This document shows, piece after piece, positions 2,380 to 45,255 of a stretch of 64,000 nucleotides of DNA. The notes beneath the pieces were generated by a model. It had not been told where the DNA came from, did no database searches, and worked only from the letters and a program-made list of their open reading frames with translations. Source of the DNA: a virus; the IMG/VR virus record IMGVR_UViG_3300003873_000002, positions 1-64,000 of that record; one strand, 5' to 3'. A program made the translations under genes and the position numbers. Within the stretch, counting starts at the first letter, position 1, and each line of letters begins with the position of its first letter.

Positions 2380-2568
2380 AGGTACGTCTTCTAAGAATGC
2401 CTAATCTGCGTTTAAAGCTGTCTTACTTATTATAGTAAATGTGGGTGCAATTTTAATATATAACACATTTAACTAAAAAGAGGAGTATTGGACTTTGGTA
2501 AATAAGGTGGAATATAGTATAACGAAATAAGAGATGGACTTGCTTTCAAGCTTTTAGGAGAAATGTAA

Positions 2569-2646
2569 ATGTGTTTTTACGGTAGCACAGCGTATACCTG
2601 TGTTATTGATATAGCACTACTATTACGAGTGCACTACGCGATGTAG
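2569..2646 (+). CDS. Possible leader peptide, 25 aa
   Basis: A short frame ATG 2569 to TAG 2646, with TAGGAG eight bases before the ATG, encodes MCFYGSTAYTC then a VIDIALLLRVHYAM tail. Its stop codon lies inside the 3' arm of the terminator hairpin at 2631-2655. That arrangement is typical of a transcription attenuator leader, and the downstream gene is the Tudor-like one at 2678. The good ribosome-binding site is the main support. It could equally be chance. Confidence 0.35.
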   Translation: MCFYGSTAYTCVIDIALLLRVHYAM

Positions 2647-2655
2647 TGCTTTTTT
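2631..2655 (+). terminator. Rho-independent terminator, possible attenuator
   Basis: GCACTAC (2631-2637), loop GCGAT, GTAGTGC (2643-2649), then six T. A second GCACTAC copy at 2614-2620 could pair with the same 3' arm and prevent the terminator forming, so two exclusive structures are possible. It sits between the STG-repeat gene and the Tudor-like gene at 2678. Confidence 0.75.
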
Positions 2656-2677
2656 AGATTAGATAAATAGGTTTATT

Positions 2678-2983
2678 ATGCTAAATAATATTAGTACAGA
2701 AGATATTGGAGAAAAAGTAACTCACTATAAACATGGGTTAGGAATTATTGAGGGTGTGAATTTAGGGGAAGTTTACTCAGTACTTGTACATTTTATAGGG
2801 TGTAAATATTATCAAAAGTTTACAATTGATGGGCGTGAGCATGTAAAAGATTATGCACCAACACTAATCTTTGGTTGGTTATCTGCAGATGATTTTAATA
2901 TCAAAATTTTTAAAGGTGAAGGAGAACCTAATGACCGTTCTAAGGAGCTATTTTGGAAAGATGAGAAGAGTAGAGAAGAGTAG
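2678..2983 (+). CDS. Tudor/KOW-like small protein
   Basis: 101 residues, and the only complete member of the family in the window. Residues 8-45 contain IGEKVTHYKHGLGIIEGV, then FTIDGR (about 48-53) and APTLIFGW (about 61-68), ending in an acidic, charged tail. The G-x-x-V-x-H-x-x-x-G-x-G-x-I pattern resembles small beta-barrels of the UvrD C-terminal/CarD type, which bind proteins or nucleic acids. Homologous copies lie at 1, 1305 and, as a pseudogene, 9425. The start is ATG 2678, eight bases after TAAATAGG; the ribosome-binding site is modest. Function unknown. Confidence 0.75.
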   Translation: MLNNISTEDIGEKVTHYKHGLGIIEGVNLGEVYSVLVHFIGCKYYQKFTIDGREHVKDYAPTLIFGWLSADDFNIKIFKGEGEPNDRSKELFWKDEKSREE

Positions 2984-3425
2984 ATAAGTTTAATTTAATA
3001 TTAGATAAATTAATAAACCATGTTCTTATAATCATCCTTCATATTGTTATATTTAATATGAATAAGTAGTTTGTGTATAATGGCATTGAATTGACTATAA
3101 AGTAGTTAGATGAGATTAACCCAGCCTTTAAACGTGACAGTGGGTGCGATGTATTTGATAGTATAGCTAACTGAGTAACTGAATGCACCCAATACAATGC
3201 AATAAATCAGATGAGTTTAATTTAAACAAATGTGGTGAAACATGTTGTGAAATTGGGTGTATCTGATTGATGAAATTACTGATGTAGAACACAAAAATTC
3301 ATAAACACAACAAAAAAATATAAATTTTTTAAAAAATAGTGACTTTTTGACTTAGGTGTATTATAATATAGTTAAGTTAGATAAATAAGCAGTCAATAGA
3401 AATTAGAATCAAATAGGGGGTAGAT
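2984..3425 (+). other. Non-coding gap with inverted repeat and promoter-like -10
   Basis: There is no convincing ORF. TGGGTGC at 3141-3147 can pair with GCACCCA at 3185-3191, giving a large stem-loop, and GGGTG recurs further on near 3260. A TATAAT at 3362-3367 with a poor -35 (GTGACT) about 18 bases upstream may drive the gene at 3426. This gap also marks the change from the less AT-rich first 3 kb to the very AT-rich remainder. Confidence 0.5.
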
Positions 3426-3740
3426 ATGTCTACATCAGCAATTATCTCAGTAAGGACAGAAAATGGAATTTTTGATATTCATCTGTATCAGCATTGGGAT
3501 GGGTATCCAGAACATACACTGAAATGGCTACAAAGATTCAATTCAGAATTTGCGAGACGAAATGATCCCAATTACAAACTTGCACAGCTCGTGAGAGCAA
3601 GCGTATTTTTATGTGAAGAATTTGATTTAGACTGCAGTAGAGAAACTGGATGGGGAATGTATACTAATAAAGATATACCATTTTATGATTACCAATACAT
3701 CCTAAATGAGGATGGAACTGTGGATTTCATTGAAAAATAA
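3426..3740 (+). CDS. Conserved phage protein of the STSAII family
   Basis: 104 residues; ATG preceded by AATAGGGGGTAGAT. It begins MSTSAIISV and has HLYQHWDGYPEHTLKWLQRF (about 21-40), then a region rich in charged residues, and ends DYQYILNEDGTVDFIEK. It is paralogous to the protein at 12994, which begins MSASAVIKI, has a glycine plus WLKDF at the same position and ends DYTYILKDDRVIVLKG. I have seen this short family in phage genomes without an assigned role. No catalytic residues are evident. Confidence 0.75.
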   Translation: MSTSAIISVRTENGIFDIHLYQHWDGYPEHTLKWLQRFNSEFARRNDPNYKLAQLVRASVFLCEEFDLDCSRETGWGMYTNKDIPFYDYQYILNEDGTVDFIEK

Positions 3741-11181: not shown

Positions 11182-11191
11182 TTTTTAAAAT

Positions 11192-11264
11192 TCCTGATTA
11201 GTTCAGTTGGTAGAACATCGGACGATTAATCCGAGTGTCGGTGGTTCGAATCCATCATCAGGAA
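11192..11264 (+). tRNA. Variant tRNA-Asn-like gene (loop CGATTAA)
   Basis: It is almost identical to the tRNA-Asn at 10969 in the acceptor, D-arm and T-arm. The anticodon arm is TCGGA-CGATTAA-TCCGA: a perfect stem, but with G instead of the near-universal U33 and formal anticodon ATT. It lacks an encoded CCA and has A rather than G at the discriminator. A run of T follows at once and may terminate the tRNA transcript. Either it is a tRNA pseudogene or it has an altered function. Confidence 0.7.
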
Positions 11265-11374
11265 TTTTTTTCTATGAAATCAACACAAACGATAAATTGT
11301 TATTTATATTCAAAATTTCATATATTTGTGCCCGGTTGTCAAAATTTTTAAAAGAAAAAAAATGAAAATAAATG

Positions 11375-40389: not shown

Positions 40390-40923
40390 ATGAAATATTC
40401 TGCAAATAAAACAAGAAGCGGATTGGGAGAACTCCAAACTACATTACATTGGGATGTCGATGTATCTGGTGGCCCTGCTGGTAAATTCGACGAGAAATTA
40501 TCTATCAGAGTTCAAACAACAACTTTGCCAACCGCAACACATGAATATGTCCCTGTTGAATTACAAGGACATACCGTTAAATATATTGGTAAAACAACAA
40601 AAGCTGGACAAATTCCATGGACATTTGTTGAAGGTACTGACGCGTTAGTAACAAGTTACTTCATTAAATGGGCTCAAAAAGCGTGGGGTGGAGACGGCAA
40701 GGATACCACTGGAAAACAAATTAAAACATCTGAAATGAAAGCAGACATTAAAATGTATTTACGTGGCCCAGATGATGCAATAACACAAACATATACATTA
40801 ATTGGTGCAATGCCATCTATTCCTGAAGGTGCTAGTTTAGCACAGACAGCAGACCCAATGAATGTTACTATCAATTGGGATTATGATGATTTCCATATTG
40901 AAACTGGTAGTGTTAAGTGGTAA
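40390..40923 (+). CDS. 19: Tail tube protein (gp19-like)
   Basis: 177 residues, close to T4 gp19 (163), directly after the sheath. Typical tube features: the early strand DVDVSGGPAGKFDEKLSIRV, then TTTLPTATHEYVPVELQGHT, and a closing ADPMNVTINWDYDDFHIETG. Forms stacked hexamer rings inside the sheath. ATG 40390 after AAAGGATTAAA. A strong terminator follows, but a second tube-like gene lies beyond it. Confidence 0.85.
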   Translation: MKYSANKTRSGLGELQTTLHWDVDVSGGPAGKFDEKLSIRVQTTTLPTATHEYVPVELQGHTVKYIGKTTKAGQIPWTFVEGTDALVTSYFIKWAQKAWGGDGKDTTGKQIKTSEMKADIKMYLRGPDDAITQTYTLIGAMPSIPEGASLAQTADPMNVTINWDYDDFHIETGSVKW

Positions 40924-40988: not shown

Positions 40989-41012
40989 GAGGCGCGTTGC
41001 GCCTCTTTTTTA
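40989..41012 (+). terminator. Strong rho-independent terminator
   Basis: GAGGCGC, loop GTT, GCGCCTC, then six T. It is the most stable hairpin in the tail region. Confidence 0.9.
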
Positions 41013-41074
41013 TGCAAAAAATTAATTACGCTTATTTATTAAATATTAGTATAATAAAAATACATGGTTTAAAA

Positions 41075-41599
41075 ATGGCAAGGTACACATCCAATCAACT
41101 TAGAAACTTTGAAGTAGACAATTCATCTAATTGGGTCGTTTCATTTACCAGCGGTAATCAATACGTTAATATAAATAATTTAAATACTATAGCAAAACGT
41201 TTTGTGCCAGCTATTGACGTTGAATTTAATAACATTGATATCAATAAAGAATCTTTGATGCTGGGTCACGGTGTTTCATATGAATACACCACTCATATCA
41301 AACCAACGAGAACGATTACAATGACTGTTTTTGATGATACAGACAGAAAAATCCGCAATGAAATTATATCATGGGCAAATAATATACACCCTAAAAGTGA
41401 TAATGGGACAAGAGCACCAAATATGTCTCAAATTAAAAAGTTTGCCACAGTTATGAATATACATAGAATAGTTGGTGGGGAAATTGTAGACAAAGAAAGC
41501 TATAATGTGGTTCCAGATGGTAATATATCATTTAGTGGCAACCAAGAGTTTAATGCAATGTCAATACCACTTGTTTTCTTAGTGGTGGGTAAAATTTAA
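41075..41599 (+). CDS. Second tube-like/tail protein, 174 aa
   Basis: ATG 41075 was chosen; the frame is open back to 40997, but that part lies over the terminator. Sequence: RNFEVDNSSNWVVSFTSGN, VPAIDVEFNNIDINKESLML, YEYTTHIKPTRTITMTVFDD, and a helix RNEIISWANNI. The pattern of strands and the short helix is like tube-fold proteins (gp19, gp48, gp54). It may be a tube initiator or a tail-baseplate adaptor. Assignment by position and general look only. Confidence 0.55.
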   Translation: MARYTSNQLRNFEVDNSSNWVVSFTSGNQYVNINNLNTIAKRFVPAIDVEFNNIDINKESLMLGHGVSYEYTTHIKPTRTITMTVFDDTDRKIRNEIISWANNIHPKSDNGTRAPNMSQIKKFATVMNIHRIVGGEIVDKESYNVVPDGNISFSGNQEFNAMSIPLVFLVVGKI

Positions 41600-41643: not shown

Positions 41644-42372
41644 ATGAAAACGGCAGAATATAAATCAGAAAAAACCAACAAAATGCATGAATATGTTGTT
41701 ATTGATCAACTACCATCGGGTTTTAGATCATATAATAATATTAAACATGTGTATGTGCGTGGGTTATTTTATGAAGAAGTGTTAGCTCTTTCTAAGTATA
41801 TTGGTGACGGTGATGCACCATTAGCACAGCTGGCAAATATTTATAGTGATGTTATTAAAGGTATTGATATCTATGATTTGGAGATAATCGACTTTACTGC
41901 ATTATTATCAATTAGTTCCGTATGGACTTCAGATTCGTTTGGTTGGACACCAAATATCCCATGTGCATGTGATGGGTGTGATGGAATTATTACTAGTAAG
42001 ATTATATTAGATGATTTTGATTTCAGTGACCCCGTTATCAAAGCAAATATCCCATATAATATAGGTGGCAAGGATGTACTTATTGGACCGATTACAGTTG
42101 GTGATGAAATTGAAAAAAATAGATATCTAGAAGGCCATGAAGATATACACAAAAATATCATGACATTTGCTCTTATGATTAAATCCAATGAAATGGATTT
42201 AGAAGAAAAGATAGATGCTATTAGGTTCGCGGATCCAATACAAATAAAAGAAATATCTGAACTTGAACGCGAATTGTTTATTTCAATTAAACCAGTAATC
42301 AAAAAATGCCCTAAATGTGGCCACGAAAATAAGGTATATGTTGGGCTCGATAAAATTCGAGCCTTTCCCTAG
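41644..42372 (+). CDS. Baseplate/tail chaperone-like zinc-finger protein (gp26-like position), frameshift donor
   Basis: 242 residues; ATG 41644 with AGAGGAAG upstream (in a 10-bp repeat). Two metal-binding pairs are visible: CACDGCDG (about 108-115) and CPKCGH (about 221-226). The location immediately before the tape-measure-like gene and the size match the T4-like gp26 hub-assembly or chaperone family. The gene ends TTT CCC TAG. CCC followed by a U-starting stop is a strong +1 slippery context, and the +1 frame stays open to 42508. A fraction of ribosomes may therefore make a 287-residue extended protein, as in G/GT pairs of siphophages. Confidence 0.65.
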   Translation: MKTAEYKSEKTNKMHEYVVIDQLPSGFRSYNNIKHVYVRGLFYEEVLALSKYIGDGDAPLAQLANIYSDVIKGIDIYDLEIIDFTALLSISSVWTSDSFGWTPNIPCACDGCDGIITSKIILDDFDFSDPVIKANIPYNIGGKDVLIGPITVGDEIEKNRYLEGHEDIHKNIMTFALMIKSNEMDLEEKIDAIRFADPIQIKEISELERELFISIKPVIKKCPKCGHENKVYVGLDKIRAFP

Positions 42373-42508
42373 TTTTGTTTATAAAGACGTCCTTATTTTA
42401 GAAACTATTTGGTTAAAAAATTTCCACACAAATATTCCATTAAAAAGACCGTATAGGGATATAGTAAACAATCTTAAAGTATATAAAAAAATGAAGGATG
42501 AATCGTGA
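42371..42508 (+). other. Candidate +1 frameshift extension (T-like segment)
   Basis: After CCC-to-CCT slippage at 42367-42370, the +1 frame encodes 45 further residues starting SFVYKDVLILETIWLKNFHT and ending KMKDES, terminating at TGA 42506-42508. It overlaps the GTG start of the next gene. The frame has no convincing start codon and ribosome-binding site of its own. The only upstream start (GTG 42317) lies inside the zinc-finger coding region. Fusion of a G-like chaperone to a short helical T-like tail is the simplest reading. Confidence 0.55.
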
Positions 42509-45255
42509 ATATAACATCTTTGGTTGAAAAAGAAAATAAAAAAATTGATGATTTCTTAAAAGGATCATCAAAAAATATTGCACATGATATGCCTGATGAA
42601 AATAAAAACACATCTGAGGTTGATAGTGTGTTGGATAAAATTTCTAGACAAGATGTTTATATTGAAGATACACTGAAATTTCTAAAAGACGACAATCACC
42701 CAATTGTCACAAATATTTTGCGTGATATCAAAAATGAGTTGCATAATACAACGGTCAAAACTGATAGAAATACACCAACAAATAATAATATAACGAACCT
42801 AAATACCATAAATAGTGATGATATTAAGTCGCTGTCTGAAATTGGTGATAATGTTGCTGATAATGCTACTGATAATGAATCAAACAATAAATTCAAGTAT
42901 CTAAAAGAATTTGAACAAATCCTTAAAGATTTTACAAAAAATATAAACGATAACCATTTTCTTAATAAGACAGAAAAGCAGTATGCTATTAAAACAGCTA
43001 ATAGCACACTAAATAAAAAAGACATAGAAAATATCAAAAGCACAATAGAACATATTGTAAATGATAGACAGTTTATCGTTAGGAATGTTGAAGCCATTAA
43101 AAAAACTATTCCAAATACATCTAAACTGTCGGCTACAACCGCTACAACAGCTACAACAGCTACATTAAAAAATGATTATAATATAGATTTCAAGCACATG
43201 GATGATATTGTAATTCAAACATTTATAGATGGGTTTGAACATGTTAAATCTGAATATTTAAAAGAGATTAAAAAAATCCCGAAAGACAAATTTAAAGAAT
43301 TAGAATTAAATGGATATACAGCTTTAAATAAGCGTTCGTTGGACAATCAAACAAATACACAAACAAATACACAAACAAAATCAACAATTGATAGATTAAA
43401 CAGCGAAAGAAAAGAAAAGGAACGAGCTGAATATGAAAGAAAAAACATAGAAATATTAGAACACATATCTAATAACGAAAATAATACATCCAATACAACC
43501 AATACAACCAATACAACCAATACAACCAATACAATCCGTGAATCTGATGAAAACATTGGGAGTTATATTGTTAGTAAAATTGGTATTGCAATTGAAAATA
43601 CAGGAATTGATAAGAAAATCGGTGACGCTATAAATAGCCAAAAATCAAAAGCTAAAGATAGTGTGGATGGGTTTATTAACCATTATATGCCGAAGAATGT
43701 AAGTGATATCATACATAGCCAACAGTTGACTGTTAATAATGACAACAATAGTGATATTATTGATCAAAACGACCAAAACGATACTAATACCATCGAACCA
43801 AATGCAGAAGTCAACGATTCCAAGGAAAATAGAGACAAACGAAAAAAACACCGTGAAGAATTAAAAAGCCAAAAAAAATTAGAAAGCGAAATACAGAAAA
43901 AAGAATTTAAACACGATAATAAAATCCAAAAAGCAAATGTAAAATATGACGAAAATATAATAAATAAGCTCGACGAAATTAATAAAACACTGGAGGACGT
44001 TATAACTGCTATATATGTATCAGGTGGTTCAAGTAGTTTGTTGCCTGATAATTTTGGTGGACGGAGTGAGAAATCAAAGAAAGGGAAACCACAAAAAGGC
44101 AAAGGTAGCATAAAACCAGGATCAAAACGGGGTATGTTTACTAGAGGAGCAAAGAGCTTAATTCACTCTGATATGGCTAAATCGTTAGTAACTAAAGCTG
44201 GCTCGTTGTTGACAGTGGGTGTTGGTGCTTATGATTATGCAACAGCTAACAATGACAATGAAAGAATAGATGCTGTTTCAACAACCGGTGGTGTACTTGC
44301 AGGTGCATCCGCAGGTGCTGCAATCGGATCAGTTGTGCCTGTAGTTGGCACATTTATCGGTGGTGTAATTGGGGGAATAGTTGGTGGTTATGGTGGTTCA
44401 CTTCTAGGAGATCAATTTAAAAACCCTGAAGATATAATCCCAGACGAAATAACAGCAAAAGGTGCCCCTGCAGAAATATCTTATATTGATAATATTATTA
44501 TACCAGAAATCGAAAAAAGTTTAGCAACAAATGATGGTAAGTACTCTAAAAAAGATCTCGCTGAAATAAATAAATATAAAAACAGTCTTTTAAAAAAAGC
44601 AAAACCAGAATTTGAGGATATGTTATCCAAAGCCGGTTTATCCAATAAAGATGAAAAAACCAAATTAAATTTCATTTTAGATAATATCGCACCATTAAAA
44701 AATACAGACACAGTGGCATATAAAACATTTGCACAAGCGGCTGTGGATATTTACCATGGTGATGTTGTCAGTGGCAATAAAAAGGGAAATGGTTTTGTTG
44801 CTGTTAATAACCCAATTAAGAATATTTCAAAAACATTAAGCACCCAATACGATAAAACCAAACAAGAGTATAGCACAAATAATACGAATAATACAAATAA
44901 TACAAGCAGTGCGAGTAATCCAGACAATACTTATATACCACACGATATAGACGTTAAACTAGATTCATATATTGGTAGTGGGATTGATAAACCTGCTTTA
45001 TTGTCAACTGTTGTACCAGAAGCCACACCAGATATGATAAATAAAAAACTTGGCATAAATATAAATAAAAACAGTATTATGAAACCTAGTGCACCAAAAT
45101 TTGATGTTAATATTAAACGAGATGAAAACCAAAGCGGTGGAACAACAATTATAAATAATAATGTGCAGCCTGGTGGTGGATCAATACAAACAACCGACCC
45201 AAAAACAAACCGTGTCACCAACGCGGGCGTAAATTTATTATCATATATGATGTAA
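42505..45255 (+). CDS. Tape-measure-like tail protein
   Basis: 916 residues from GTG 42505 (GAAGGATGAATC upstream), overlapping the frameshift extension stop. The first 550 residues are helical, charged and low-complexity, with repeat-expanded tracts (TATTATTAT, TNTTNTTNTT, QTNTQTNTQT). Residues about 555-640 are a glycine- and alanine-rich hydrophobic segment (GGVLAGASAGAAIGSVVPVV, then GGVIGGIVGGYGG) typical of tape measure proteins that insert in the host membrane. It ends with a NNNVQPGGG region. Position after the candidate frameshift gene strengthens the call. T4 gp29 is shorter (590). Confidence 0.75.
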   Translation: MNITSLVEKENKKIDDFLKGSSKNIAHDMPDENKNTSEVDSVLDKISRQDVYIEDTLKFLKDDNHPIVTNILRDIKNELHNTTVKTDRNTPTNNNITNLNTINSDDIKSLSEIGDNVADNATDNESNNKFKYLKEFEQILKDFTKNINDNHFLNKTEKQYAIKTANSTLNKKDIENIKSTIEHIVNDRQFIVRNVEAIKKTIPNTSKLSATTATTATTATLKNDYNIDFKHMDDIVIQTFIDGFEHVKSEYLKEIKKIPKDKFKELELNGYTALNKRSLDNQTNTQTNTQTKSTIDRLNSERKEKERAEYERKNIEILEHISNNENNTSNTTNTTNTTNTTNTIRESDENIGSYIVSKIGIAIENTGIDKKIGDAINSQKSKAKDSVDGFINHYMPKNVSDIIHSQQLTVNNDNNSDIIDQNDQNDTNTIEPNAEVNDSKENRDKRKKHREELKSQKKLESEIQKKEFKHDNKIQKANVKYDENIINKLDEINKTLEDVITAIYVSGGSSSLLPDNFGGRSEKSKKGKPQKGKGSIKPGSKRGMFTRGAKSLIHSDMAKSLVTKAGSLLTVGVGAYDYATANNDNERIDAVSTTGGVLAGASAGAAIGSVVPVVGTFIGGVIGGIVGGYGGSLLGDQFKNPEDIIPDEITAKGAPAEISYIDNIIIPEIEKSLATNDGKYSKKDLAEINKYKNSLLKKAKPEFEDMLSKAGLSNKDEKTKLNFILDNIAPLKNTDTVAYKTFAQAAVDIYHGDVVSGNKKGNGFVAVNNPIKNISKTLSTQYDKTKQEYSTNNTNNTNNTSSASNPDNTYIPHDIDVKLDSYIGSGIDKPALLSTVVPEATPDMINKKLGININKNSIMKPSAPKFDVNIKRDENQSGGTTIINNNVQPGGGSIQTTDPKTNRVTNAGVNLLSYMM

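Follow-up and report, generated by a model that had tools for sequence, protein, structure and literature searches.

Programmed +1 frameshifting is familiar from the autoregulatory site of the RF2 gene (prfB), AGGGGG UAU CUU UGA C, and from the influenza PA-X site, UCC_UUU_CGU. The tail assembly chaperone gpG/gpGT of phage lambda, of the Xu 2004 family, is produced by a −1 frameshift. A review describes G–T frameshifting of this kind as conserved among phages with long tails, T4 being the exception (PMC5009743); in T4 the short and long forms are separate genes, gp26 and gp51. Both T4 proteins appear in PMC3004832 as chaperones of hub assembly, gp51 being required although it is missing from the particle, which fits a chaperone role. 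Judging from the papers that cite Vladimirov 2022 (PMC10885494, PMC12846349), genes for a short and for a long chaperone occur together in some T4-like phages, and poly-T −1 sites are present in T4-like TAC genes; the title of that study states that T4-type chaperones use a mechanism other than frameshifting. In the +1 direction, a CCC_UGA site is established in Listeria phages (tsh of PSA, A118 and A500; PMC5009743) and a CCC_UAA site in SPP1 (gp17.1/17.1*; PMC6316719), and a +1 shift at TTT-CGC before the tape measure gene has been proposed for HF1-group haloviruses (PMC7230728).

The window analysed here is a stretch of 64,000 nucleotides from an IMG/VR virus contig of 154,123 bases, and its gene order at the locus of interest is tail tube, chaperone, tape measure (Table 1). 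The 242-codon gene is preceded by a purine-rich ribosome-binding region, gaggaagtgaATG, encodes a protein whose C-terminal part is Cys-rich and zinc-ribbon-like, and ends in ATT CGA GCC TTT CCC TAG. Read from 42371, the +1 frame gives SFVYKDVLILETIWLKNFHTNIPLKRPYRDIVNNLKVYKKMKDES, 45 codons whose closing TGA (42506-42508) overlaps the tape-measure GTG at 42505; ATG, GTG and TTG are absent near its beginning. An earlier note on this DNA had described a 242-residue gene ending in TTT CCC TAG, followed by an open 45-residue +1 frame that lacks a start of its own and stops at the tape measure start, and the ORF coordinates and our reading of the junction bear out each part of that description. Elsewhere in the window, at 11191-11265, ARAGORN calls a tRNA-Asn with anticodon ATT, unusual for Asn in having A34, beside tRNAs for Thr, Asn(GTT) and Ser.

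Table 1. Positions of the tail genes and of the proposed recoding elements in the window
Feature	Positions	Strand	Remarks
Putative short tail assembly chaperone gene (G / TAC-N / gp26-like)	41644..42372	+	242 codons, from the ORF listing
Putative +1-frame extension (T / TAC-C)	42371..42508	+	45 codons and TGA at 42506-42508
Proposed +1 shift site CCC_UAG	42367..42372	+	
Position of SD-like element, as placed in relatives	42355..42363	+	ends 3 nt upstream of the Pro codon
Tape-measure-like protein	42505..45255	+	916 aa; PHROG tape measure / tail matches; glycine zipper
Two tail-tube-like genes, directly upstream	40390-40923; 40997-41599	+	phrog_45 and phrog_1842

Taken from the window alone, the case for recoding is modest. 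When the region was Markov-shuffled, 1.7% of the shuffles had a +1 frame open over 44 codons, and among 15 gene ends compared in the window the junction has by far the longest +1 frame open past the stop (45 codons, with the runner-up at 26). CCC is a rare Pro codon here, accounting for 9 of 133 Pro codons in 12 surrounding ORFs, and the shift site is the sole place in those ORFs at which an in-frame CCC is followed by T.

The decisive point, and the one that carries the argument, is recurrence in independent relatives, as read from their sequences. By tblastn the window protein matches Cobetia phage Carin-5 (47% identity) and Yersinia phages YerA41 and GN1 (46%), with a more remote match in Thermus phage phiLo (26%), and further relatives are IMG/VR phages (L005/L009 at 31%, L007 at 48%, L010/L011 at 35% and a truncated L008 at 71%); among genome contigs scanned for relatives of the gene, none was found. 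Five distinct close relatives can be read to their end (YerA41/GN1, Carin-5 and three IMG/VR phages), and at a zero-frame identity of 31-48% all five share one layout, a CCC/CCU-stop junction followed by an open, conserved +1 frame of 42-45 codons that runs towards the start of the tape measure gene. The junction reads TAT CCC TAG in YerA41/GN1 and L005 and TAT CCC TAA in L007 and L010, and Carin-5 deviates with TAC CCT TGA C. In the annotated genomes of YerA41, GN1 and Carin-5 the extension region is an unannotated gap of ~140-155 bases. The +1 translations of this region resemble one another far more than do those of the other frames (mean BLOSUM62 score of 54.5 over 15 pairs, vs 12.1 and 11.9), and the +1 frame contains no stop in any genome compared, against 2-8 in the other frames. 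When the 45-residue extension was the sole tblastn query, its two full-length matches were the YerA41/GN1 gap, with 40% identity over 45/45 residues (E 0.02). In the window and its close relatives alike, the conserved residues start at the slip codon itself.

Two findings that, by the earlier note's own account, would have counted against a frameshift were homologues lacking the overlapping +1 frame and an independent start codon in relatives; the frame is kept in all complete close relatives, and no conserved start codon was found there. Conservation of the CCC-T stop, which it proposed as a check, holds in part, as CCC_UAG or CCC_UAA in most close relatives and with Carin-5 departing to CCU_UGA_C, and does not extend over the wider family, where a second branch has CCN_UUU_CGU and a third a U-rich −1 site.

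What the earlier note overlooked is an RF2-like SD element present in the relatives. Three nucleotides upstream of the Pro codon, anti-SD pairing in five of six genes is stronger than at 96.6% or more of in-frame positions, the element of each of the five relatives falling within the top 0-3.4%. The Carin-5 element, AGGGGG (dG −8.7), equals that of prfB, and the whole site reads AGGGGG UAC CCU UGA C; the others are CGGGGG in L007, AGGAGU in YerA41, and AAGGUA and AAGGUU in L005 and L010. The window's own element is weak (CGAGCC, dG −2.2), with 28% of positions equally strong. No stimulatory 3' RNA structure was found downstream of the shift site.

By linked profiles and by predicted fold, the window protein is assigned to the T4 gp26/gp51 family (PF12322, T4_baseplate). 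Its direct match to PF12322 (E 4.7e-4, 20.3 bits) lies below the 24.5 cut-off, and that to phrog_150, baseplate hub, is weak (E 0.024). Two more remote members score above the cut-off (phiLo at 33.2 bits and a Rhizobium member at 29.2 bits), and T4 gp26 and gp51 both match at E 9e-64 and 4e-52. Profile-profile comparison with hhalign connects the window group to a group comprising phiLo, the Rhizobium member and EP_H11 (E 1e-19), and that group to one of Ackermannviruses and cyanophages (E 7e-9), whose profile in turn matches gp26 (E 1e-17) and gp51 (E 9e-14). The zero-frame product, modelled with AF2 (pLDDT 86.7, pTM 0.85), gave 47 Foldseek matches in a viral library at E up to 1e-3, many of them to entries named as hub subunit or as T4-like baseplate hub assembly protein. 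The match to gp26 of Aeromonas phage 25 had E 1.1e-3, and a fold search of the PDB with the same model returned nothing. The extension is predicted to form a two-helix hairpin (helices 4-18 and 28-44, pLDDT 80). Homology of the window group's extension to the T domains of other groups or to the gp51 tail was not detected, so that its function is proposed from the zero-frame domain and gene position. An hhalign alignment that extended PaBG_00072 into the window group's T region was rejected, shuffled T columns leaving its score of 47.87 unchanged.

A second type of +1 site is seen elsewhere in the family. In all 15 of the distinct further family genes of this branch, from phages of Thermus, Rhizobium, Escherichia, Acinetobacter, Vibrio and Pseudomonas and from seven IMG/VR phages, the equivalent place reads CCN TTT CGT and is followed by a +1 frame of 44-74 codons. 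An invariant TTT and CGT would have p ~3e-15 under the codon use of these genes if they were independent, and the true value is less extreme because the 15 are related. For two near-identical pairs the nonsynonymous/synonymous ratio of the +1 frame is 0.10 (150E35-1 vs 1.031.O) and 0.09 (Aura vs Peetri), and that of the other frames exceeds 1.4, ratios which show purifying selection on the putative +1 extension in both pairs tested. The zero-frame stop of this branch lies 8-24 codons downstream of the site, and the branch has no SD-like element. Because the codon preceding UUU is not always CCC, the slipping tRNA is probably that for Phe, moving from UUU to UUC. Vibrio phage Va2 (L020:2923-3702) has CCC TAT at the shift position and keeps the +1 layout, and on this sequence it is a bridge between the two types of +1 site.

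Two side observations concern the same branch. In L024-L033 and other UUU_CGU loci the zero-frame tail past the site often keeps an (R)IRFG-like motif, and the 14-24 codons that follow the site appear to be under constraint in two frames at once. The annotations of two members also look wrong: the phiLo gene (L004:4980-5726) is recorded as a 'DNA methylase' and that of Rhizobium phage RHph_TM39 (L012:3441-4226) as a 'peptidase domain-containing protein', and both are T4-type tail chaperones (PF12322) with a putative UUU_CGU +1 extension.

Other members arrive at a short and a long form by different means. The gp26-like gene ends just past a U-rich stretch, with an extension in the −1 frame, in the Ackermannviruses Cba120, VAP7, phiMAM1 and SH-Ab 15599, and the same arrangement is found in Vibrio phage K474, Aeromonas phage TSW001 and cyanophage S-RIM44. 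The S-RIM44 gene annotated 'baseplate hub assembly catalyst gp51' (L040:2714-2893) is the −1-frame extension of the gp26-like gene upstream of it. The T4-type gp51 itself consists of the shared domain and a C-terminal tail that matches these −1 extensions, at E 2e-7 when compared with the −1 T domains alone and with none of 200 column shuffles as good. Pseudomonas phage PaBG has tandem short and long paralogues (L043:1719-2504 and 2501-3448; 28% identity, E 4e-29), one ending at the zinc-ribbon-like region and the other continuing in frame into a C-terminal extension; as judged by this paralogy, this jumbo phage has a pair of short and long genes like that of T4. The analogy to G/GT that the earlier note drew from gene position thus gains from T4 gp26/gp51 family membership and from relatives that have a −1 arrangement or separate short and long genes.

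Could the second frame yield a small protein in its own right, with no fusion made, if ribosomes reinitiate at the stop or the two frames are translationally coupled there? Such a reading would suit the −1 branch, where the second frame is annotated as a gene of its own in S-RIM44 (the 'gp51' above) and in VAP7, and termination at the site does leave ribosomes beside the second frame. Against this, the second frame of the window and its close relatives begins without ATG, GTG or TTG and is conserved from the slip codon onward; in the UUU_CGU branch coupling at the stop is unable to give the conserved beginning of the extension, because the stop is 8-24 codons too far downstream; and long forms encoded in frame are present in T4 and PaBG. 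We consider this explanation very unlikely. Still less likely is it that the 242-aa protein is the sole product and that decay or a sequencing fault has left the second frame as the remnant of a C-terminus (a pseudo-extension or assembly error). The window is an IMG/VR record, which might invite such a suspicion, but phages that were cultured and sequenced independently have their break at this very codon, and the conservation is limited to the +1 frame; for the family as a whole, the recurrence of the break in isolates refutes it.

It might also be that the frameshift is real and that its two products are structural variants of hub or tube, comparable to SPP1 gp17.1/17.1*, rather than chaperones. 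The frequent annotation of gp26 as 'baseplate hub subunit' would agree with this, as would the use of CCC_UAA in SPP1 and of CCC_UGA in Listeria phages for proteins of the tail tube (PMC6316719, PMC5009743). We nevertheless think it unlikely, since the gene has the tail tube on one side and the tape measure on the other, T4 gp26 and gp51 are classed as chaperones of hub assembly, with gp51 missing from the particle (PMC3004832), and the extension is predicted by AF2 to be a short helical hairpin and not an Ig-like domain.

Our preferred reading, in which we have high confidence, is that the window gene encodes a T4-type tail assembly chaperone and very probably makes a second, longer form of it by a +1 frameshift at its last codon. 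From the frames and their conservation, the conserved shift codons, family membership, gene position and the alternative arrangements of relatives, we infer that slippage takes place, that it does so at a frequency giving a minority long product, and that the two forms divide the labour. Most ribosomes would end at UAG and release the 242-residue short form, and a minority would pause there, with UAG in the A site and the P-site CCC paired to tRNA-Pro. Were tRNA-Pro then to slip by one base, from CCC to CCU, reading would go on in the +1 frame to give a long form of 287 residues that ends in a helical hairpin. The frequency of the slip would set the ratio of short to long form; in the relatives, an internal element that pairs with the anti-SD 3 nt upstream probably increases it, as at the RF2 site. 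By analogy to lambda gpG/gpGT, the short part may act as a coat for the tape measure protein and the extra domain of the long form may recruit tail tube subunits, and neither form need remain in the virion.

More interesting than the window site itself is that the T4-type chaperone family contains conserved +1 sites of two distinct kinds. We lean towards the view that all of these chaperones need a short form together with a long one and that the decoding route has been swapped repeatedly, among +1 shifting at CCC_UAR with an RF2-like SD element, +1 shifting at a PA-X-like CCN_UUU_CGU, U-rich −1 shifting, and separate genes (T4, PaBG). T4-type chaperones with their −1 and two-gene solutions were already known, and the two +1 sites appear to be the new part: in the literature, where Vladimirov 2022 is represented by its title and by citing papers, we found no report of CCC-stop or UUU_CGU +1 sites in T4-type chaperones, nor of conserved use of UUU_CGU by bacterial viruses as a programmed +1 site. 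Given conserved +1 sites of two kinds among its relatives, the T4 exception to G–T frameshifting seems to be one of several states of a family whose decoding route changes. Annotators would gain a way to locate, in many large phages, a tail protein that has been missed, and recoding researchers a conserved candidate UUU_CGU site in bacteria; if the swapping is true, the family would provide a natural series on how recoding signals replace one another.

Set beside the known systems, the locus resembles each in part. Like lambda gpG/gpGT, it places directly before the tape measure a gene for a short form and a putative minor, C-terminally extended recoded form; unlike lambda, its site is +1 rather than −1 and its phage is large, with a contractile tail. 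With T4 gp26 (short) and gp51 (long) it shares the family of the zero-frame protein and the pairing of a short with an extended form, but T4 has two genes and related phages poly-T −1 sites (the latter according to papers citing Vladimirov 2022), where the window has one gene and a candidate +1 CCC_UAG. The slip proposed here, in which tRNA-Pro moves from CCC to CCU while a stop codon occupies the A site, is that of PSA/A118/A500 tsh and SPP1 gp17.1*, and the +1 shift at CCC-U that the earlier note named for PSA structural genes corresponds to the CCC_UGA of PSA tsh (PMC5009743); those are tail tube or shaft genes, whereas here a chaperone gene is concerned, with an SD-like element in relatives. 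The Carin-5 site, AGGGGG UAC CCU UGA C, parallels prfB in its anti-SD element 3 nt upstream and its A-site stop, with a Pro codon where prfB has Leu, and would serve stoichiometry rather than RF2 sensing. The invariant CCN_UUU_CGU of the second branch, finally, is like the PA-X and HF1-group sites, and differs from them in belonging to bacterial phages and to the T4-type chaperone family, where it is a candidate site.
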